A stretch of DNA of 64,000 nucleotides from Paenibacillus sp. FSL K6-3182 (GTDB taxonomy: Bacteria; Bacillota; Bacilli; Paenibacillales; Paenibacillaceae). Positions 44,645-60,036 of the stretch are shown here, piece after piece. Location: NCBI RefSeq assembly GCF_037976325.1, contig NZ_CP150265.1:5965001-6029000 (forward strand). Direction: 5' to 3'. Under the pieces are notes generated by a model. That model had not been told where the DNA came from and searched no databases. It saw only the letters and a program-made list of their open reading frames with translations. The translations under genes and the position numbers were made by a program. The number at the start of each line of letters is the position of its first letter. Position 1 is the stretch's first letter.

Positions 44645-45691
44645 TTAAAGCTTGAATTTTTGAGCCACTTCGTTCATTTCCATTGCAATTACACGCAAGC
44701 CGTTAGCTGCAGAAACTTCGCCGGCAATTGCGGAGGTTCTAGAGGCAATTCCTGTCATTTGGGAAATGGATGAATTGACCTCCCGTGCACTTGCTGCAGC
44801 TGCTCCGAGGAGGATACTGCCTCCTGAATTTTTTCAAGCACATCTCTTGAAGCATGTGCGATTTGAATGAATGCATCTCCTGTATCTGTTATACTTGCCA
44901 GTCCTTCTATCGATTCAGCTTCACTCATTCTCATAGCCTTCACGGCAGTTTCTGTATCATTCTGAATTTCATTGATCAAATCCTGAATTTTCACAACAGA
45001 TTCCGCTGACTGTGTAGAGAGCTTGCGCACTTCTTCCGCTACAACCGCGAAGCCCCTTCCATGCTCTCCCGCTCTTACCGCCTCAATCGCGGCGTTCAGC
45101 GCCAGCAGATTTGTCTGCTTTGAAATATTTCCAATCAGCTCAGATATGGTTCCAATATTTCGGGTGTGCGCTGCGAGCTGCTGTACACCGAGAGCCATTT
45201 CTTCTGAGGCGTGACTTATTTCTAGAAAGCTATGCAGCTGCTCCTGCGAACCTGCGGCTACCTCTCGAAAACTGTTCATTGCATGCTGCGCTGAGTTGCG
45301 ATTTTGCTCTGAAATAGCCAGCATCTCTTCTGATGAAGCGGTTATGTTCATCCAAAGCATGCTGTACACTCGTAATGGCAGAACGAAGAGAGGCAAGCAT
45401 TTCAGCGGAAGCACTGACCATTTCTCCAATTTCATCACGATTTTTCACTTTCGGGACGATAGCGGATAAATTTCCTTGGGCTACCTCTGAAAGGAATTGC
45501 GCCGTTTTCTGAATCGGAATGGAGATCGCTCTGCGAACGTACCAGATAAGAAATCCGACAAGTACCGTTGCCGCTGCAAGACCGCTAATGATCTCAATGT
45601 TGTTCTGTTTATGTATATCCCCGCTAACGTTTACCGCTCTCTCTGCTCCTTCACGATAGAATGTTAGTTTAAATGTTTTAATAAAAGGCAT
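44645..45691 (-). pseudogene. degraded methyl-accepting chemotaxis protein
   Basis: The frame beginning at 45691 gives the end of a membrane segment (IISGLAAATVLVGFLIWYV) and a HAMP domain (ISIPIQKTAQFLSEVAQGNL). At about 45350 similarity jumps to another frame ([18 protein letters not shown]) that holds the signalling hairpin ([34 protein letters not shown]). At about 44798 it jumps again to a frame ending NEVAQKFKL at the stop 44645. No sensor domain is present upstream, where an in-frame stop occurs. Two frameshifts plus N-terminal loss make function unlikely; sequencing error could explain the shifts but not the missing sensor. Confidence 0.85.
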
Positions 45692-48674: not shown

Positions 48675-48703
48675 ACTTAGTTTGTCTATTAAACAAACTA
48701 AGT
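48675..48703. promoter_or_regulatory. XylR operator
   Basis: ACTTAGTTTGT and ACAAACTAAGT form a perfect 11-bp inverted repeat with a 7-bp spacer, matching the well-known XylR operator (TTAGTTTGTT-N-AACAAACTAA). It overlaps the xylA promoter region (candidate -10 TATTCT on the minus strand near 48660). Confidence 0.9.
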
Positions 48704-52203: not shown

Positions 52204-52241
52204 TAAAACAGGCATGCTGCGATGGCAGCATGCCTGTTTTT
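52204..52241. terminator. bidirectional terminator
   Basis: ACAGGCATGCTGC and GCAGCATGCCTGT form a perfect 13-bp stem around GATG, followed by T-rich sequence, between the convergent GH2 and giant exoprotein genes. Confidence 0.88.
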
Positions 52242-52281: not shown

Positions 52282-55200
52282 TTATTGAACGCGATGTACG
52301 CCAACAATATCTAATGTTTGTCCATCGATCGTTATGTCTACTGATTTCGTTTTCACTGTGCCATTATTGTAGTAAGCAGAAAATGTGAATGTTAAGGTGC
52401 CTTTAGCAAGCTTTGTGAATGATGCATCCCAAAGCTCACCCTTCCAGTTGGTTTGCCCTGCGTTTAATGCGGTTAGAGACGTTTCGTAAGTATGCATATG
52501 CACCTCTACCCGATCCGCTTTTGTAGCCGTACCTGTAATGGTCGTATCTGCCTCCAGTATAAATTTCTCTCCCGCCCAAAATATCGAATAACCGCGCGGC
52601 GAATTCTCATCTCCTGATTGTTTTAAATTAAAAGCCTTACGATGCTGATCCCATAGCTCAGTATGCCGTACATAAGCATTGACATGTAGCGGCAGCACCT
52701 GCAACGTTTTGGTTACGCTAACCGGCTCAGCTATACCGTCGCTAACCGTTAGCTTCATACTCCAAAGCCCTACCGTTGTTAACCTCAGTGAAGGCCCTTT
52801 TACCGGATAGTTTGGACCATTAACGGTATAGAAATAGCTGTTCTTCACGCCGAGCGGACTTGTCAGCTCATAAGCAATCGTAAGCGTATTGCCATCAGCA
52901 TCTGTCACATTCGATAGAAACGTTGTCATATCTCCTTCATATACAGGTTTGGGCGTCCAATCAAAGTCAGCCGTCGGAGGTCGATTGGTAACGAAATAAA
53001 TATATTCATAATGCCCTTCATTGCCGGCAACGTCATAATCGATTATGGTAAGGCGATATGCTTGTCCAGAAATCAACCCAGCAACTTTGTATGATTGCTT
53101 AGAAAGTGCTAAAGGAATGCTGTATTCTATTTTACCGTCACCATTTAAATCAATATTCGTCACACTGCCGCTCGCGTTCACTTTTTGCAAATAGAAAGTG
53201 CGAGCAGCATGTCCCGAGGAAGGCTCGGCATCATAGAAGGTATTGAACTGAACCGTTACGGCCGTAGGTTCAACAGTAAGCTGTTCATTCACATCTGCAG
53301 GTTTAACCGTATCGACAAAGAAAAACCCGTTGCTTGAATACGGTCCCCATATATAGCTGTCGTTCGCTCTCGCTCTCCAGTAATGCAGCCCCTCAGCTAA
53401 CGCAGGTGTTGTGTAATTATCAGCAGCCAAAGCTGAGTTTGTGTCCACTACCATAACACCGCTTGATGCTTTGAACACCTCATAGTCTATCGCTTTAATG
53501 GGGTGGTTCTCTGGATCAATCGTAAACGCGTGCAGCTGTGGGCGATTTGAGTTTGTATAAATAGGATTATTAGCATCTAGCCCGTTAAACGAAAGTAAAT
53601 AGGTTTGCGGCGGGAGATCCAGCACAAAATATTTAATATTGCTTAAATTAGACCATACCCCTACTGAGTAAACCTGCCCTTGCACCTTAACGACGCGACC
53701 TGGAACGATGCTTTCCGCAAGCATAGGATACGTAAGTGCATTTCCTTCATGCTCAATATACAAGGCCGTTTCATTGTTATCGACATAGGTTAGTGTTAAA
53801 CGATAACTTTCTTGCGGATCATTCTCCTTGTCATAATACGTCCATCGAATCGTCGGTTCTTTAATCAGCACCGTCGGTGTTGTTGGAGTCGTTCCAGCAG
53901 GTACCGTAATGGTCATAACAGGCTTCGTTTGGTTAACTGGCGGTATTCCGTCCTTATAGACTATCGATTGCCCCCAATAAGACCATGCTCCGTGTATATC
54001 TCGAACTTGCTCCTGTACAATCAGCTCCACTCCAGGGCGATTATAGTACTCCCGTTTCCCGACTGTCCATGTGCTTTGATCAGCCCATCGTGTACGGAAT
54101 AACTTGTCTGATAAAATATGAGCAATATCAGGATCATAAGAGGTATCAAATGTTTCATAATCTAGTGCTTCACCTTCTGCAAAAACCTTGCCTGTAAACC
54201 TAACATCCGGCTGTGCGACCGGTCGTCGATGTACATAAAGCAGCTTTTTCACTGGCTCTGACCATTTGCTATAAGCAGAAAGACCAGGATTGTCTTTAGC
54301 ACGGAAGGTGATTTCATATACCCCAGGTTTCTCTAGCTCGTTTATGGTTGATCCATACGTTTTTCCGCTATAAATGCTCAACCCTTCTGGATTTTCAAAG
54401 AAGTTTGGATTATGGCTGTAGCTCCACTCTTCTGCTCCCATTGGATCTTTTTCAACGTCATTGAATAGTTTCTCATAAGAGATCGGATCATTGACGAGAA
54501 CAGAATCATAGGTTTGTTCGATGTAAGTGTCACCATAGTTCGTTTTCTTTACATTAGAGAATACAGCGTTGGATTGCCCAAGTGACATTAATCCCGCGTA
54601 GCCTCTTGTATACGTACCATCGGCAACCTCTAGTACTTTCGCATAATTCACATATACACGCTGAATGCCATTAACCGATTCTACTTTAATCGGATACGTG
54701 TTAAATGCAGTTCGTGTCATTGGTGTAGATTGCAATAATCTTTTCGCACCATTGACTACACGGAATAGCGACAGGGTGTTCTTGCTCCACTCCATTGCAT
54801 ACATATTTTTCTCATTCTGAATCTGAAAAGCAGCTCCGATAACCTTGTCGTTTCTTATATCACTTACATTTGCATGAAATTCTAAGGCGTAGTTTTTCAT
54901 AGCACTTCCAACATCATAGAGCAGTCCGCCCCAATCGTCACTCGTAATTTCAACGGTATTTGCATCTATTTCCTTTAATGTTCCATTAGCGTTAGCTGAA
55001 ACAAACGGCATGACATTTTTATCGTAAAAAACATAAATGGAGCCATCCGGTAAAATAGGTGTTGATGATGATCCTGATAGCTTTTGATTATTTCCTGGTT
55101 CTGCTCCGGAATATGGCGTCTGGGCAATGACACTATTGGTTGTTGCGTTATACAACGTGGCCCATATTTTTTTAGGTGCATCGGGATCACCCCAAGAGGT

Positions 55201-58200
55201 TCCCACAGGCATAAACACTGGATAAATAATCTGATCGTATTGATTGATAAATATTTTACCAAGGTTTGCACCATAATCTACACCTTGAAAACCGCCGTGT
55301 TGGTCTCCATAGTAATTAAAAAATGCATTATACGATTCGTGCGTTCTGCCTTGGGAATACGTCAATAAATTGGAAAAAACGATTGGATTTGCATTGGGTG
55401 CTACATCTGAATAACCTAATGGATGTGAACTTTCGTAACTGACAATCCTTCTTCCAAAAGCGCTCTTAAATATTTCTTCACCGTAATAGTTAGTACCGCT
55501 CTCAATTGCCTCAAACATAGTAGTACCTGTTTTACTGCTACCCATGGACACATAATTTACATAGACAAATCTTTTTGAATCAGATATGGAAGCCGCAGAT
55601 AGTCCAATTGCACCCCCTACAGTAACGTTACGAGTTACACCATTTTTTTTCACTTGTACAACGAGACCTCTCACTCCTCCTAATCCAGAAGAATAGCGAT
55701 CTTCAAAGTTATACGTAACGTACGTATCTCCGTTATCATCTTCGGTCAAGTTAATGTTTGAAATAAATCCACGATCCAAGTTCTCCCCTGGTGCTTCCCA
55801 CACTAAGCTTTTCGTTTTTAAGGAGTATTTGAAAATTCGCAATTGATTATTGTAATTATAATTATATTGCTCAGGCACATCATACGAGAATTTACTAGCC
55901 ACATACATATATTCGCCATCAGATGATATTTGGACAAGAGCCGGTCCAATTCCGCTGCCTAGTCCGCTAGGTGATGTTAAACTAGATTGCAAATTAATCG
56001 AATCAAGATATACACCATTTTTATCGTACCTCGCAATGACCGCTAAATACGGGTTGGCTGCATTTTGTCTTCTATCTGCAAAGTAAAATGTTTCATCTCC
56101 GCCAATTTCCATAAGTGTGAAATTGCTAGGTGTATCAAAATTAACCGTCCTCAAAAGCTCACCTGTAATTGAATTTCGTTCATAAAATGTATAGGGATAG
56201 TTAGGCAAGCTATAATTCTGACTATAAGAATATAGACGATTCCCACCGAAAACCTTGTTAAATATTATTTCTGAATTTGGCACACTCCAAGTGGGTTTAG
56301 CAACAATATCAGCAGCAAGCTGATATTTTGTTCGTGAGTTCGCTCCATTTCCTGAGTTCGGGTATCCAACTGAAAAGTTTGCGTACACTCCATTTTTTGT
56401 CGATAGTGTAGTAGCATCCGCTTTCCATGCCGCTTTTTGGGCATTTCCGCCTTTGTATGGCGTCTTAACCGTCCACGAACGGAAAATCGATTGTGTTGAG
56501 TAGTTCGTAACTGGTGGGCCGCTGTCTTCTCCCTGTCCTGGCTGCTGTGTAGTTCCAAACACGTTGAAGTTTGCAGACGGCTTGTAGTTCAGAATATCAG
56601 TAATGGCAATGCCCGAACTACCTTTTAACCCATAGTCTTCTGTCACGGTAGCACGATACTGCCTCTTCCCTACTTTAGAGTAATTGAGCGAATGCGTTGT
56701 TTTAAAAACTCCATTATATAAGGGTTTCCACGCTTCTTCCTCAAAGTTTCCATCACCATCTTGGTCATATCGCTCTTCGAGAAAAAGATGATTTAGAATA
56801 TCGCCGTCAGGACTCTCTGCATCGATATAAAGCATGAATCCGTTACCTCGATATGATTCTTCAGGTGCTAGCACTTCGACTGTAGGTGGTGCATCAGGAA
56901 TAACCTCCATAATTAAATCATCCCAATCACTAGCTCTTCCAGTCGTGTCATAAACCTTTCCTTCGATACTATATTCGCCTAAATTAGCAGGCGTTACGGT
57001 GAACCAACCATTTGTATAGGCTGCATCTCCTACTTTTTTATAGCGCATCTCCGACTTGCTAAAATCTATTTTTTCGCCTCTATCCTCTAATGGTGTATAC
57101 GAGTTTAAAAGATTGTAAGGTCGCTCTAAAGGCCTTCCTTGTATCACACGCGTTATTCCCGATACGATGGCTACTGGTTTGGGATCGACAACCCGAAGCA
57201 ATGCAGTATCCTTTTGCGATCCGCCAAATCCATCGGTTACGGTAATTTCAGCCGTATAAAACCCAGGATTTGAATAAGTCTTGTACAAAAACTCAAAGTC
57301 TGTATTATTTGGTAGTACTGCGCTCAAGTTGTTCGTGAATGTCCATGTGTAGCCGTTCAGTCCTTTTGACCGATTTATAAGCGAGGACTTTTCCCCTGCA
57401 ATAATACTAGGAGGATCAAATTCTATATCCGCTTTCAAATCAGGCTTAGGTGTAGGTGTTGGCTCAGGAGTTGGCGTAGGGCTTGTGCTTGGATTTGGCG
57501 TTGCTTTATTTGCCACGTTTATTATCAGCTGCGCCCACTCCGAAACTTTTTTTGCGCTATTGGTGACACGCAGCTCAATTATGTATTTCCCTTCAGCAGC
57601 AAAATCTTTTGCTGTTGGTTTTGTTGCAATCGTTTTACCTGTTGGGTTTTTATATTTCCAATCTCGAATGGTGATAGATTCCTTGCCTGGCGAATAGGAG
57701 AGTTTGTCATCAAGCTTCGGCTCTGTTGCCGGCTTCATGGTTATTTCGGGGGTTGTTCGATGGTCTCCCTCTTTATGAGAGATGATAGCTATTGGAGTAG
57801 TGGGTTCGTTCTTTTTGTTGAATGCAATTTTAAAATCTTTGGTATTGTTATTTTCGTTTGATTCGATGACGGCTTCACCAAAATCAGTCTTCGCTGTGAA
57901 GGTCTTAATTCCGCTTGATGTAGAGGATACATTGACGGTAACTGTTTTGGTTTGTCCGGGTGGTATGTTTGAAATGATTTCTGATTTAATTGTTGTCCCA
58001 ACTATACCTACCGTAAATGCTCCGCTACTTAACGTTTTACTTTTATTCTCTGAAGTAATTTTAATTGGTATAGAGTCGCCAACCCATGCATCTGCCGGAT
58101 TGACTATTGCGCTAATGATAAGATCAGGTTTTGAGGGCGGTGGCGGAAGCGGTTCAGCTGGAATAGTAAAGATTTCATACCACCACGAATCATCAGGCTG

Positions 58201-58833
58201 CCATATATTCCACATTTGAACGACACCAGGAGAAAATTTTGTTCGAGCTTGCTGTATTATGACATAGTCTAAGAGTGTATCCCCCGTCCAGCTCGTTCCT
58301 TTTAATTTATTGTAACTTTCTAAAAATGTTTTTGAATGACCATACGGATCTATTATTTCTTTCATCCATTGTGCTGCATCAGGATTACTATTAAGCACTG
58401 TCGATTCCCTTATATTTTTTGATTTTCCTACACTAGTGTCCCATGGTGTCTTTACCCAATTCTTCGCCACACTTTTGGTTGCATTTGAATCACTTTCAAA
58501 CATCCAGTTTCGATATAGATTTCCTTCATAATCCCAACCAAGATAACGAGATTGTCCCTTTTTTTCATCTTGCACTAATTTGTCAACATCTGATGGACAA
58601 CCATAAACTATAACACTTGAACCAATGTTGGATTGATTTAATAAAAATTTTTCGTTTAAAGCACCTTTAGAGTTTTTCAACGGTATATTATAAAAATCAA
58701 TATATTCTTGCGCCAAATCGCTATATTTAGCTGGTGCTGGACAATTCGTAGCTGCACTAACATGTAGAGGGAATGAAGTTATGAAAACCACAAAACATAA
58801 AGCTATGATAAGTAAATTCTTAACGACTTTCAT
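52282..58833 (-). CDS. giant secreted multi-domain protein (CARDB, PKD/Ig-like, propeller-like)
   Basis: A 2183-residue exported protein. After the signal peptide (KNLLIIALCFVVFITSF, cut near HVSAA) comes a unique Trp/Asn-rich domain (30-235). A CARDB domain (about 239-335, ESNENNNTKDFKI) and an Ig/PKD-like region follow, with a PTPTPEPTPTPKP linker near 450. More PKD-like domains precede an EF-hand-like DQDGDGNFEEEA near 691. A repeat-rich beta region at 800-1250 suggests a propeller. A lectin-like domain lies at 1315-1430, then more Ig/Fn3-like domains and DLNGDGKIEYS near 1895. There is no SLH or sortase motif. The ATG at 58833 has GGTGGGTGAG upstream, inside the SLH gene end. Binding partner unknown. 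Confidence 0.85.
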   Translation of the reverse strand: MKVVKNLLIIALCFVVFITSFPLHVSAATNCPAPAKYSDLAQEYIDFYNIPLKNSKGALNEKFLLNQSNIGSSVIVYGCPSDVDKLVQDEKKGQSRYLGWDYEGNLYRNWMFESDSNATKSVAKNWVKTPWDTSVGKSKNIRESTVLNSNPDAAQWMKEIIDPYGHSKTFLESYNKLKGTSWTGDTLLDYVIIQQARTKFSPGVVQMWNIWQPDDSWWYEIFTIPAEPLPPPPSKPDLIISAIVNPADAWVGDSIPIKITSENKSKTLSSGAFTVGIVGTTIKSEIISNIPPGQTKTVTVNVSSTSSGIKTFTAKTDFGEAVIESNENNNTKDFKIAFNKKNEPTTPIAIISHKEGDHRTTPEITMKPATEPKLDDKLSYSPGKESITIRDWKYKNPTGKTIATKPTAKDFAAEGKYIIELRVTNSAKKVSEWAQLIINVANKATPNPSTSPTPTPEPTPTPKPDLKADIEFDPPSIIAGEKSSLINRSKGLNGYTWTFTNNLSAVLPNNTDFEFLYKTYSNPGFYTAEITVTDGFGGSQKDTALLRVVDPKPVAIVSGITRVIQGRPLERPYNLLNSYTPLEDRGEKIDFSKSEMRYKKVGDAAYTNGWFTVTPANLGEYSIEGKVYDTTGRASDWDDLIMEVIPDAPPTVEVLAPEESYRGNGFMLYIDAESPDGDILNHLFLEERYDQDGDGNFEEEAWKPLYNGVFKTTHSLNYSKVGKRQYRATVTEDYGLKGSSGIAITDILNYKPSANFNVFGTTQQPGQGEDSGPPVTNYSTQSIFRSWTVKTPYKGGNAQKAAWKADATTLSTKNGVYANFSVGYPNSGNGANSRTKYQLAADIVAKPTWSVPNSEIIFNKVFGGNRLYSYSQNYSLPNYPYTFYERNSITGELLRTVNFDTPSNFTLMEIGGDETFYFADRRQNAANPYLAVIARYDKNGVYLDSINLQSSLTSPSGLGSGIGPALVQISSDGEYMYVASKFSYDVPEQYNYNYNNQLRIFKYSLKTKSLVWEAPGENLDRGFISNINLTEDDNGDTYVTYNFEDRYSSGLGGVRGLVVQVKKNGVTRNVTVGGAIGLSAASISDSKRFVYVNYVSMGSSKTGTTMFEAIESGTNYYGEEIFKSAFGRRIVSYESSHPLGYSDVAPNANPIVFSNLLTYSQGRTHESYNAFFNYYGDQHGGFQGVDYGANLGKIFINQYDQIIYPVFMPVGTSWGDPDAPKKIWATLYNATTNSVIAQTPYSGAEPGNNQKLSGSSSTPILPDGSIYVFYDKNVMPFVSANANGTLKEIDANTVEITSDDWGGLLYDVGSAMKNYALEFHANVSDIRNDKVIGAAFQIQNEKNMYAMEWSKNTLSLFRVVNGAKRLLQSTPMTRTAFNTYPIKVESVNGIQRVYVNYAKVLEVADGTYTRGYAGLMSLGQSNAVFSNVKKTNYGDTYIEQTYDSVLVNDPISYEKLFNDVEKDPMGAEEWSYSHNPNFFENPEGLSIYSGKTYGSTINELEKPGVYEITFRAKDNPGLSAYSKWSEPVKKLLYVHRRPVAQPDVRFTGKVFAEGEALDYETFDTSYDPDIAHILSDKLFRTRWADQSTWTVGKREYYNRPGVELIVQEQVRDIHGAWSYWGQSIVYKDGIPPVNQTKPVMTITVPAGTTPTTPTVLIKEPTIRWTYYDKENDPQESYRLTLTYVDNNETALYIEHEGNALTYPMLAESIVPGRVVKVQGQVYSVGVWSNLSNIKYFVLDLPPQTYLLSFNGLDANNPIYTNSNRPQLHAFTIDPENHPIKAIDYEVFKASSGVMVVDTNSALAADNYTTPALAEGLHYWRARANDSYIWGPYSSNGFFFVDTVKPADVNEQLTVEPTAVTVQFNTFYDAEPSSGHAARTFYLQKVNASGSVTNIDLNGDGKIEYSIPLALSKQSYKVAGLISGQAYRLTIIDYDVAGNEGHYEYIYFVTNRPPTADFDWTPKPVYEGDMTTFLSNVTDADGNTLTIAYELTSPLGVKNSYFYTVNGPNYPVKGPSLRLTTVGLWSMKLTVSDGIAEPVSVTKTLQVLPLHVNAYVRHTELWDQHRKAFNLKQSGDENSPRGYSIFWAGEKFILEADTTITGTATKADRVEVHMHTYETSLTALNAGQTNWKGELWDASFTKLAKGTLTFTFSAYYNNGTVKTKSVDITIDGQTLDIVGVHRVQ

Positions 58834-58841
58834 TATAAAAC

Positions 58842-59822
58842 TCACCCACCAATCCAAAAGGATACCCCTGTATCATCTGAACCTTTATATACAACAAAAC
58901 TTCTTCCATCGTAAGTCGTTTCTATTTCATCCGTAGCGTCCCCGGCTTTAGAACTATCCACTTTAAGATAGTTACTATAGGCTTTTTCAAATGATATAGG
59001 ATAATAATATTTTAAAATATCTTTGACAAATTCTTTTACATCCGCTGAACTTTCAAAAGTGTTAAGTGTAGTTCTTTTTAATTCAGCCTTATATTCAATT
59101 GTCACTTTATTATCTTGAAATGTATCCGTTCCTTTAAGGTTAATTAGAATGGTTTGATTTCTACCATAAGTCGTATTCCCCTTAAAACTAGGTAAACTCT
59201 GAATCAATGTATTCAACTCTTCCTTCGTCTTCGGATAAGCCACCGGCTTCCCATTCTTCGCCATCAACGTATTCAGAATCATCACCACTGCCTCAGCACG
59301 AGTTGCATTCTTCTCTCCGCCCATCGAACCATCAGGATAACCCTTCATAATCTCCAGTTTTTTTGCCACAGCCAAATAACCTGACTTTACGCCTTCGGCA
59401 TCTTTGCCTAGCGCACGGATCGTCATACGCGCGATCTCTTCTCGCGTAATCATACGATTTGGATCAAATGTATTTTCAGGATAGTCGCCAACCTTAATAA
59501 TCGATTGTTTTAAACCCGTAGCAATATAAGTTCGGAACCAACCCGTATCATCAACAAAAGGCGTATCTGTATCTTCCACTTTCACCTTCATCGCCATCGC
59601 AATCGACTTCAAAAACTCTGCACGCGTCATGTTCGCATTTGGCTTAAATGTTTTTGCATCATAACCATTAATCCATCCTTGGTTAATAGCCGTCGCAATT
59701 TCATCCTTTGCCCAATGCGTTTTTGTATCTGTAAAAGCAACTGCTGCCGCAGCTGTCTCCGTATTTATCAGAAACGTCACCAATAACGTAATTGCGAGCA
59801 AGATTTGTCCTATTTTCCGCAT
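58842..59822 (-). CDS. S-layer-homology (SLH) domain surface protein
   Basis: A 326-residue exported protein. A signal peptide ends near TAAAAVA. Three SLH domains follow: about 29-75 (FTDTKTHWAKDEI...NANMTRAEFL), 87-140 (FVDDTGWFRTYIATGL...RMITREEIARM) and a shorter one at 145-190 (IMKGYPDGSMGGEKNATRAEAV). These bind pyruvylated wall polymer. The C-terminal about 130 residues form an unassigned domain rich in Lys, Thr and Tyr. ATG at 59822 is chosen (GGAGTGG upstream) over ATG at 59837. Its stop is eight bases before the giant protein start, so both are made from one message. The 330-bp upstream gap has no gene. Confidence 0.92.
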   Translation of the reverse strand: MRKIGQILLAITLLVTFLINTETAAAAVAFTDTKTHWAKDEIATAINQGWINGYDAKTFKPNANMTRAEFLKSIAMAMKVKVEDTDTPFVDDTGWFRTYIATGLKQSIIKVGDYPENTFDPNRMITREEIARMTIRALGKDAEGVKSGYLAVAKKLEIMKGYPDGSMGGEKNATRAEAVVMILNTLMAKNGKPVAYPKTKEELNTLIQSLPSFKGNTTYGRNQTILINLKGTDTFQDNKVTIEYKAELKRTTLNTFESSADVKEFVKDILKYYYPISFEKAYSNYLKVDSSKAGDATDEIETTYDGRSFVVYKGSDDTGVSFWIGG

Positions 59823-60036
59823 ATTTAACCACTCCATTTATTAGGATGATAAAAATTCACCAGCGATAAAAAAACATTTTTAACACATTTTTTTACAGCA
59901 GCTTCATAATCATTCTTCTTGCCTGTCTCTTTCCCCTTCTTTTCTTATCCCCTTTCCCTCCACTATTTCCCGTATTTCGACAACATTCCTTCCCCCATCA
60001 GCAGGCAACTCTCCCAAGAAACACTGCTGAAGCAAC

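Follow-up and report, generated by a model that had tools for sequence, protein, structure and literature searches.

We analyzed a pair of adjacent genes in a 64,000-nucleotide stretch (the window; contig NZ_CP150265.1, positions 5,965,001 to 6,029,000) of the 7.56-Mb, single-contig genome of Paenibacillus sp. FSL K6-3182, one encoding a short S-layer homology (SLH) protein and the other a very large exported protein, here termed the giant. Both genes are found on the reverse strand, as are all protein segments located below. The upstream SLH anchor gene (58842..59837, with the stop codon ending at 58842) encodes 331 residues with a signal-peptide-like start; an alternative ATG at 59822, the start used in the initial annotation, gives 326 residues, the length of database entry P0061. 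After a gap of 8 nt, the giant gene (52282..58833; ATG at 58833, stop ending at 52282) encodes 2183 residues. Apart from the choice of SLH start, the coordinates, strand, lengths, and gap agree with the initial annotation.

The SLH repeats previously assigned to the small protein were recovered as three stretches (residues 31–195; 59253..59747) that score 96.2 bits with Pfam SLH (PF00395) and pass the curated cutoff of that family; the genome is rich in such repeats, with 150 scored. The C-terminal domain that follows (C-domain; residues 205–331; 58845..59225) is the proposed receptor for the giant. It matches no Pfam family above cutoff and is variable, with a mean identity of 0.50 over 20 pairs versus 0.75–0.76 for the SLH part. 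The anchor protein model has a mean predicted local distance difference test (pLDDT) score of 84.3, with 10-residue means of 88–97 across the C-domain.

The N-terminal domain of the giant (N-domain; residues 28–235; 58129..58752), which we propose as the plug for the anchor, had been described as novel but belongs to NCBIfam NF047340 (Athe_2463 domain), a family already named though of unknown function, with 77.6 bits against a cutoff of 36 over residues 72–223; the mean pLDDT of its model is 84.8. It is followed by the CARDB domain first seen in the initial annotation (residues 235–332; 57838..58131; Pfam, 45.9 bits, above cutoff). Several PKD/Ig-like units had also been suggested, of which one stretch exceeds the cutoff (PKD_4, residues 487–543, 57205..57375; 38.5 bits) and the others score under it. 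The propeller-like region (residues 770–1270; 55024..56526) shows the greatest variation within the giant, with a mean identity of 0.32. A profile of residues 765–1275 matches designed repeat proteins (Cake) with a best whole-chain E of 1.7e-9, but no individual stretch is significant by itself and a single-sequence search of the region returned no propeller, which leaves the earlier assignment partly supported. The lectin-like domain is likewise retained in a weaker form: residues ≈1276–1436 (54526..55008) constitute a β-sandwich with a profile match to the levanase module 4b1m (E 1.7e-9), a module we take to be of the CBM66 type. The EF-hand-like loops reduce to two DxDxDG motifs, at residues 690 and 1895, with no Pfam EF-hand match in the giant. 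The remainder is a tail (residues 1441–2183; 52285..54513), the last 260 residues of which define the set of loci described below.

In line with the initial annotation, no wall anchor was recognized in the giant, for which Pfam lists none of the SLH, sortase-anchor, cohesin, and dockerin families at E ≤ 1, and it lists no cohesin or dockerin for the SLH protein either; the C terminus, ...DITIDGQTLDIVGVHRVQ, contains no LPxTG-type sorting motif. Stalk domains (PKD_4 and CARDB) combined with levanase-module-like and propeller-like regions are features reminiscent of fibrillar adhesins, although an adhesive role is putative.

We collected related loci as chosen stretches from the best genome-search matches plus hand-picked further stretches, rather than every match. 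Of 51 genomes of the genus, 50 contain a match to P0040, a relative with a different N terminus, and 20 further stretches were taken from these. Among 70 giants longer than 1400 residues, 65 share the tail, and 58 unique loci remain after removal of duplicates, window included; L084, L087, L095, L096, and L123 show no tail sharing at 1e-5 and were left out. A wall-binding anchor is encoded upstream of the giant in all 58, as scored with self-built models for SLH and Cu_amine_oxidN1 (the latter from five seeds including L112 and L158): an SLH protein in 46, a Cu_amine_oxidN1 protein in 5, and a Cu_amine_oxidN1 protein plus one intervening gene in 7. The two genes are thus kept together in relatives, as the initial annotation required, with seven pairs one gene apart; its SLH partner holds for the 46, and the anchor is of the other type in 12 of 58. 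In the three-gene form (L158–L162, L166, and L167), a protein of 733–757 residues lies between the Cu_amine_oxidN1-type anchor and a protein of 1615–1990 residues, as if the N-terminal part of the giant were its own gene; the one intervening protein scanned, that of L158, contains PKD. A second SLH protein of 313–322 residues is encoded immediately upstream of the anchor gene in L108, L109, and L121 (with Pfam SLH matches in the first two), preceded in L109 by an HD-domain protein, and in L114 (genome G005) the giant is split into two open reading frames (ORFs) of 1005 and 837 residues, each shorter than 1400.

The N-modules of these loci fall into five clusters (38, 9, 6, 4, and 1 members). 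The 51 two-gene pairs sort into three clusters by N-module and seven by anchor C-domain, and no C-cluster is common to two N-clusters. The seven three-gene loci stand outside this statement because the clustered partner there is the intervening protein and not the anchor; their cluster C3 pairs with both N2 and N4. Within the 38 Athe-type pairs, nearest neighbors stay within the C-domain group in all 38 cases for the N-domain, in all 38 for the anchor wall part, and in 31 of 38 for the tail. Similarity across groups comes close to that within groups for the tail (0.38 versus 0.50) but not for the N-domain (0.07 versus 0.47).

At E ≤ 0.001, 85 of 394 genomes from the family carry the Athe_2463 domain, 54 of them with scores above cutoff; in a sample of 398 genomes from the phylum it occurs in 29 (26 above cutoff), and all 14 control genomes lack it. 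The window genome has a single match. An SLH ORF is located directly upstream in 30 of the 31 loci L009–L039 (the window, L009, and the best-scoring matches, L010–L039), with L035 lying at a contig edge. Elsewhere in the Bacillota, and for a class of ≈930-residue Paenibacillaceae proteins, the upstream partner often carries a Cu_amine_oxidN1-type (stalk) motif instead of SLH (Pfam for L099), and many but not all distant loci have a partner of one of these two types. L061 and L093 have no partner within 400 nt in the gene calls, although visual inspection of the raw ORF list of L061 suggests a stalk-like ORF. Pfam assigns no family to the L082 partner, the SLH score of the L079 partner is under cutoff, and the stalk motif was not found in L103 and L106 by pattern search. 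Our script found no domain ORF in L063 and L094 and misassigned the partner in L045. L099–L107, from Paenibacillaceae, harbor Athe_2463-like proteins of ≈905–1015 residues, mostly with a stalk-type partner and many ending in MYDDL- or MFDDL-like sequences; by eye, type VII secretion-like genes adjoin those of L100 and L104. The passages of a Caldicellulosiruptor bescii study that concern Athe_2463 and Athe_2464 (PMC5865380) report them as proteins of unknown function, encoded in the same operon and with peak abundance on xylan and xylose.

Covariation was quantified over 20 window-type pairs, leaving out L147 and L148 as too distant. C-domain and N-domain have nearest neighbors in common in 13 of the 20, compared with 5 for C-domain and its own SLH part, 8 for N-domain and adjacent CARDB, and 4 for C-domain and head. 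The corresponding partial correlations are 0.52, 0.24, 0.26, and 0.02, and the C-domain/N-domain value was never attained in 4999 permutations. The head forms a second block, in which the propeller region has a partial r of 0.83 with PKD 450–760 and 0.72 with the levanase-like part.

Comparison with L077, from Paenibacillus sp. FSL A5-0031 of the same species, places the covarying segments in one divergent block of ≈1.28 kb (58000..59280) that contains the anchor C-domain from residue ≈186, the 8-nt gap, the signal peptide, the N-domain, and the first ≈45 CARDB residues (to ≈279). DNA identity in 30-nt windows is 0.30–0.83 inside the block; outside, it averages 0.959, with a minimum of 0.84 over 98 windows of 75 nt. 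The block edges are identical against L072, whose surroundings average just 0.843, and in both comparisons the anchor-side edge coincides with the end of the SLH repeats. At the protein level, identity to L077 is 0.95 for the SLH part, 0.46 for the C-domain, 0.48 for the N-domain, 0.88 for CARDB, and 0.92–0.97 for the further parts. The window C-domain is nearest to that of L070 and the N-domain equally near to those of L069 and L070, whereas L077 provides the closest match for each of the other five segments. We infer recombination as the cause of the block.

Taken together, we favor, with a probability of about 0.68, a model in which a matched interface between the anchor C-domain and the giant N-domain tethers the giant, with its variable head, to the wall. 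The two genes would constitute a unit for surface display. The SLH protein would be exported by means of the signal peptide evident at its start, and its SLH repeats are predicted from family membership to bind the secondary cell wall polymer. The C-domain would be the receptor for the N-terminal Athe_2463 domain, and the giant, as product of the next gene, would be held on the wall noncovalently through that docking, as the covariation of C-domain and N-domain suggests. CARDB, PKD, and further Ig-like units would carry the variable head, composed of the propeller-like region and the levanase-type carbohydrate-binding module, outward; the levanase-like module points to adhesion, most likely to plant or soil glycans. 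The two docking domains would be matched types, tending to joint inheritance and exchange, with the head varying separately. Binding, wall location, and glycan adhesion of the giant are in each case what we infer from sequence. The tether proposed in the initial annotation withstands the adjacency test set there and gains support from the covariation, but is modified in that the N-domain is not novel and the anchor is not always an SLH protein. Contact-dependent interaction, also suggested there, received neither support nor contradiction.

Several observations weigh against this model. The raw correlations are less distinct than the partial ones, with 0.76 for C-domain and N-domain versus 0.71 and 0.68 for the C-domain and the two SLH halves. 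L072 and L077 are 0.74 identical in their N-domains but 0.50 in their C-domains, and the nearest relatives of L077 differ, being L111 for the C-domain and L075 for the N-domain. The C-domain groups may partly follow clades, since the anchor wall part also groups in 38 of 38 pairs. A first guess from the C-terminal ends, that all anchor types share one C-domain family, was dropped after profile–profile comparison, which joined solely g3 and g4 (E 1.4e-16); the weak matches are those of the window type to g2 (E 0.047) and g4 (0.02), and of g2 to g4 (0.0029, probability 11%). We therefore claim no common family, and the C-domains of the main anchor types are without recognizable homology to one another. 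Finally, the divergent block extends ≈45 residues into CARDB, and the covarying segments are adjacent in DNA, so that one exchange tract can link both even if the proteins do not bind.

Because of this adjacency, linkage alone is a live rival. The covariation would then derive from exchange or diversifying selection acting on one contiguous stretch, and the giant would be released or bind the wall by itself; the continuation of the block into CARDB and the partial r of 0.26 between N-domain and CARDB are what such a process would leave. It accounts less readily for an anchor-side edge located, against L077 and L072 alike, where the SLH repeats end, or for a C-domain that tracks the N-domain across a gene border more closely than its own SLH part (partial r of 0.52 versus 0.24). 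Moreover, in none of the 51 two-gene pairs is an anchor C-end cluster shared between different N-module clusters, and the giant harbors no wall-binding family above cutoff. We consider linkage as the sole explanation unlikely.

Two further roles are compatible with the tether. In the first, the pair would belong to a Tad/Flp-type pilus, with the anchor as its wall tether and the giant as its adhesin or exit collar. Searches of the fetched stretches with phmmer, using Tad proteins of L073, L092, and L125, place pilus-type (Tad or Tad-like) genes near the pair in 13 related loci. Six are among the 57 tail-family loci other than the window: L073, L109, L121, L125, L155 (a CpaF fragment), and L167 (E ≈1e-5 only), the last two on weak matches. 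The other seven are among 20 stretches (15 genomes) from other Bacillota, of which L087, L088, and L092 have TadB/C and L082, L084, L085, and L098 are counted by a CpaF-type ATPase alone. Since a CpaF-type match by itself cannot be told from other secretion ATPases, the weaker matches of L089 (E 3e-11) and L096 (E 4e-13) were left outside this count. L073 scores 100.6 bits with Pfam T2SSE, above cutoff, with RcpC and T2SSF just under theirs, and some positive stretches contain small pilin- or TadE-like ORFs by eye. The window and 51 of the 57 loci gave no match to these queries, however, and the Tad-like locus of the window genome, at 1.70 Mb, is without the gene pair; in this lineage the pair is not close to pilus genes but may still serve a Tad-like pilus encoded elsewhere. 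On this evidence a pilus role is doubtful, and we regard it as quite unlikely.

The second role concerns xylose. A xylA, xylB, or ROK xylR relative adjoins 31 of the 57 unique tail-family loci, the window pair is also near xylose genes, and six C-end clusters (C0, C1, C2, C5, C6, and C7) occur beside genes of this type. A xylan- or xylose-specific surface module induced together with the adjacent xyl genes, to which the C. bescii operon would be a parallel, is nevertheless improbable, given that no xyl-operator-type repeat was found upstream of the SLH gene, that among solved structures the sugar-binding-like module is closest to a levanase, and that the other 26 of the 57 loci have no xyl gene in the stretch. 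The only such inverted repeat, near perfect and presumably of the xyl-operator type, lies at 48676–48702 in the interval from xylA to xylR, the divergent gene for a ROK regulator, and control of the gene pair by XylR was rejected on this ground. Elsewhere in the window, a terminator-like hairpin of 16 pairs (52205..52240) separates the giant from a convergent GH2 gene, in a region with 8 such sites versus 6.8 expected by chance, and a chemotaxis-receptor-like protein (44755–45691, reverse strand) appears, by eye, to be split over two overlapping frames, possibly a frameshifted gene.

An extension of the tether model is more tentative, and on the whole we think it somewhat unlikely. One slot beside Paenibacillus xylose genes would act as a polymorphic display platform, in which six anchor C-domain clusters and three N-module families, plus the three-gene form, precede one common tail family, with the propeller head as a second, separate module. 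The locks would be specific, and a genome could therefore carry several orthogonal tethers; three pairs are seen in one genome, G357, listed as the same species as the window. The module would derive from a Tad-type pilus wall anchor.

Wall display via a second protein is known from cellulosomes, in which SLH-borne cohesins anchor scaffoldins, but Pfam lists no cohesin or dockerin family for the present pair. As in cellulosome anchoring, an SLH protein would use a matched protein pair to keep a large secreted partner on the wall; here, there is one co-encoded anchor per giant, and the presumed interface varies together with the N-module of the giant. SpaA of Paenibacillus alvei, an S-layer protein, is an SLH protein with solved structures, from which the anchor differs in that its SLH unit bears a variable C-domain of ≈130 residues. 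The sections of a fibrillar-adhesin survey that treat anchoring (PMC8286594) report 1,785 such proteins for which no known anchor was found, and mostly C-terminal anchors in Gram-positives; the giant shares the long exported chain, the stalk-type domains, and putatively the adhesive head, but its anchor would be a separate co-encoded protein and its wall end the N terminus. C. bescii Athe_2463/Athe_2464, so far as its report describes them, resemble the pair in having the same N-domain family above cutoff and two genes in one operon (PMC5865380). The S-layer cassette types of Clostridium difficile (PMC6254364) likewise involve allelic differences of a bounded surface-protein cassette between strains, whereas the block here spans one domain from each of two genes. 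A relation to CmoA of Paenibacillus sp. NAIST15-1 was rejected, as the portion of its report concerned (PMC5072692) gives vWFA and IPT/TIG domains and a flagellar locus. We found no published description of this two-gene system in the openly licensed literature.

If the tether holds true, some of the many adhesin-like exoproteins with no recognizable anchor of their own could be explained by a type-matched anchor that is co-encoded as a protein apart. This would also provide a search rule for further anchors, one gene upstream, and a testable role for the Athe_2463 domain, as well as natural and possibly orthogonal protein pairs for protein display on Paenibacillus.
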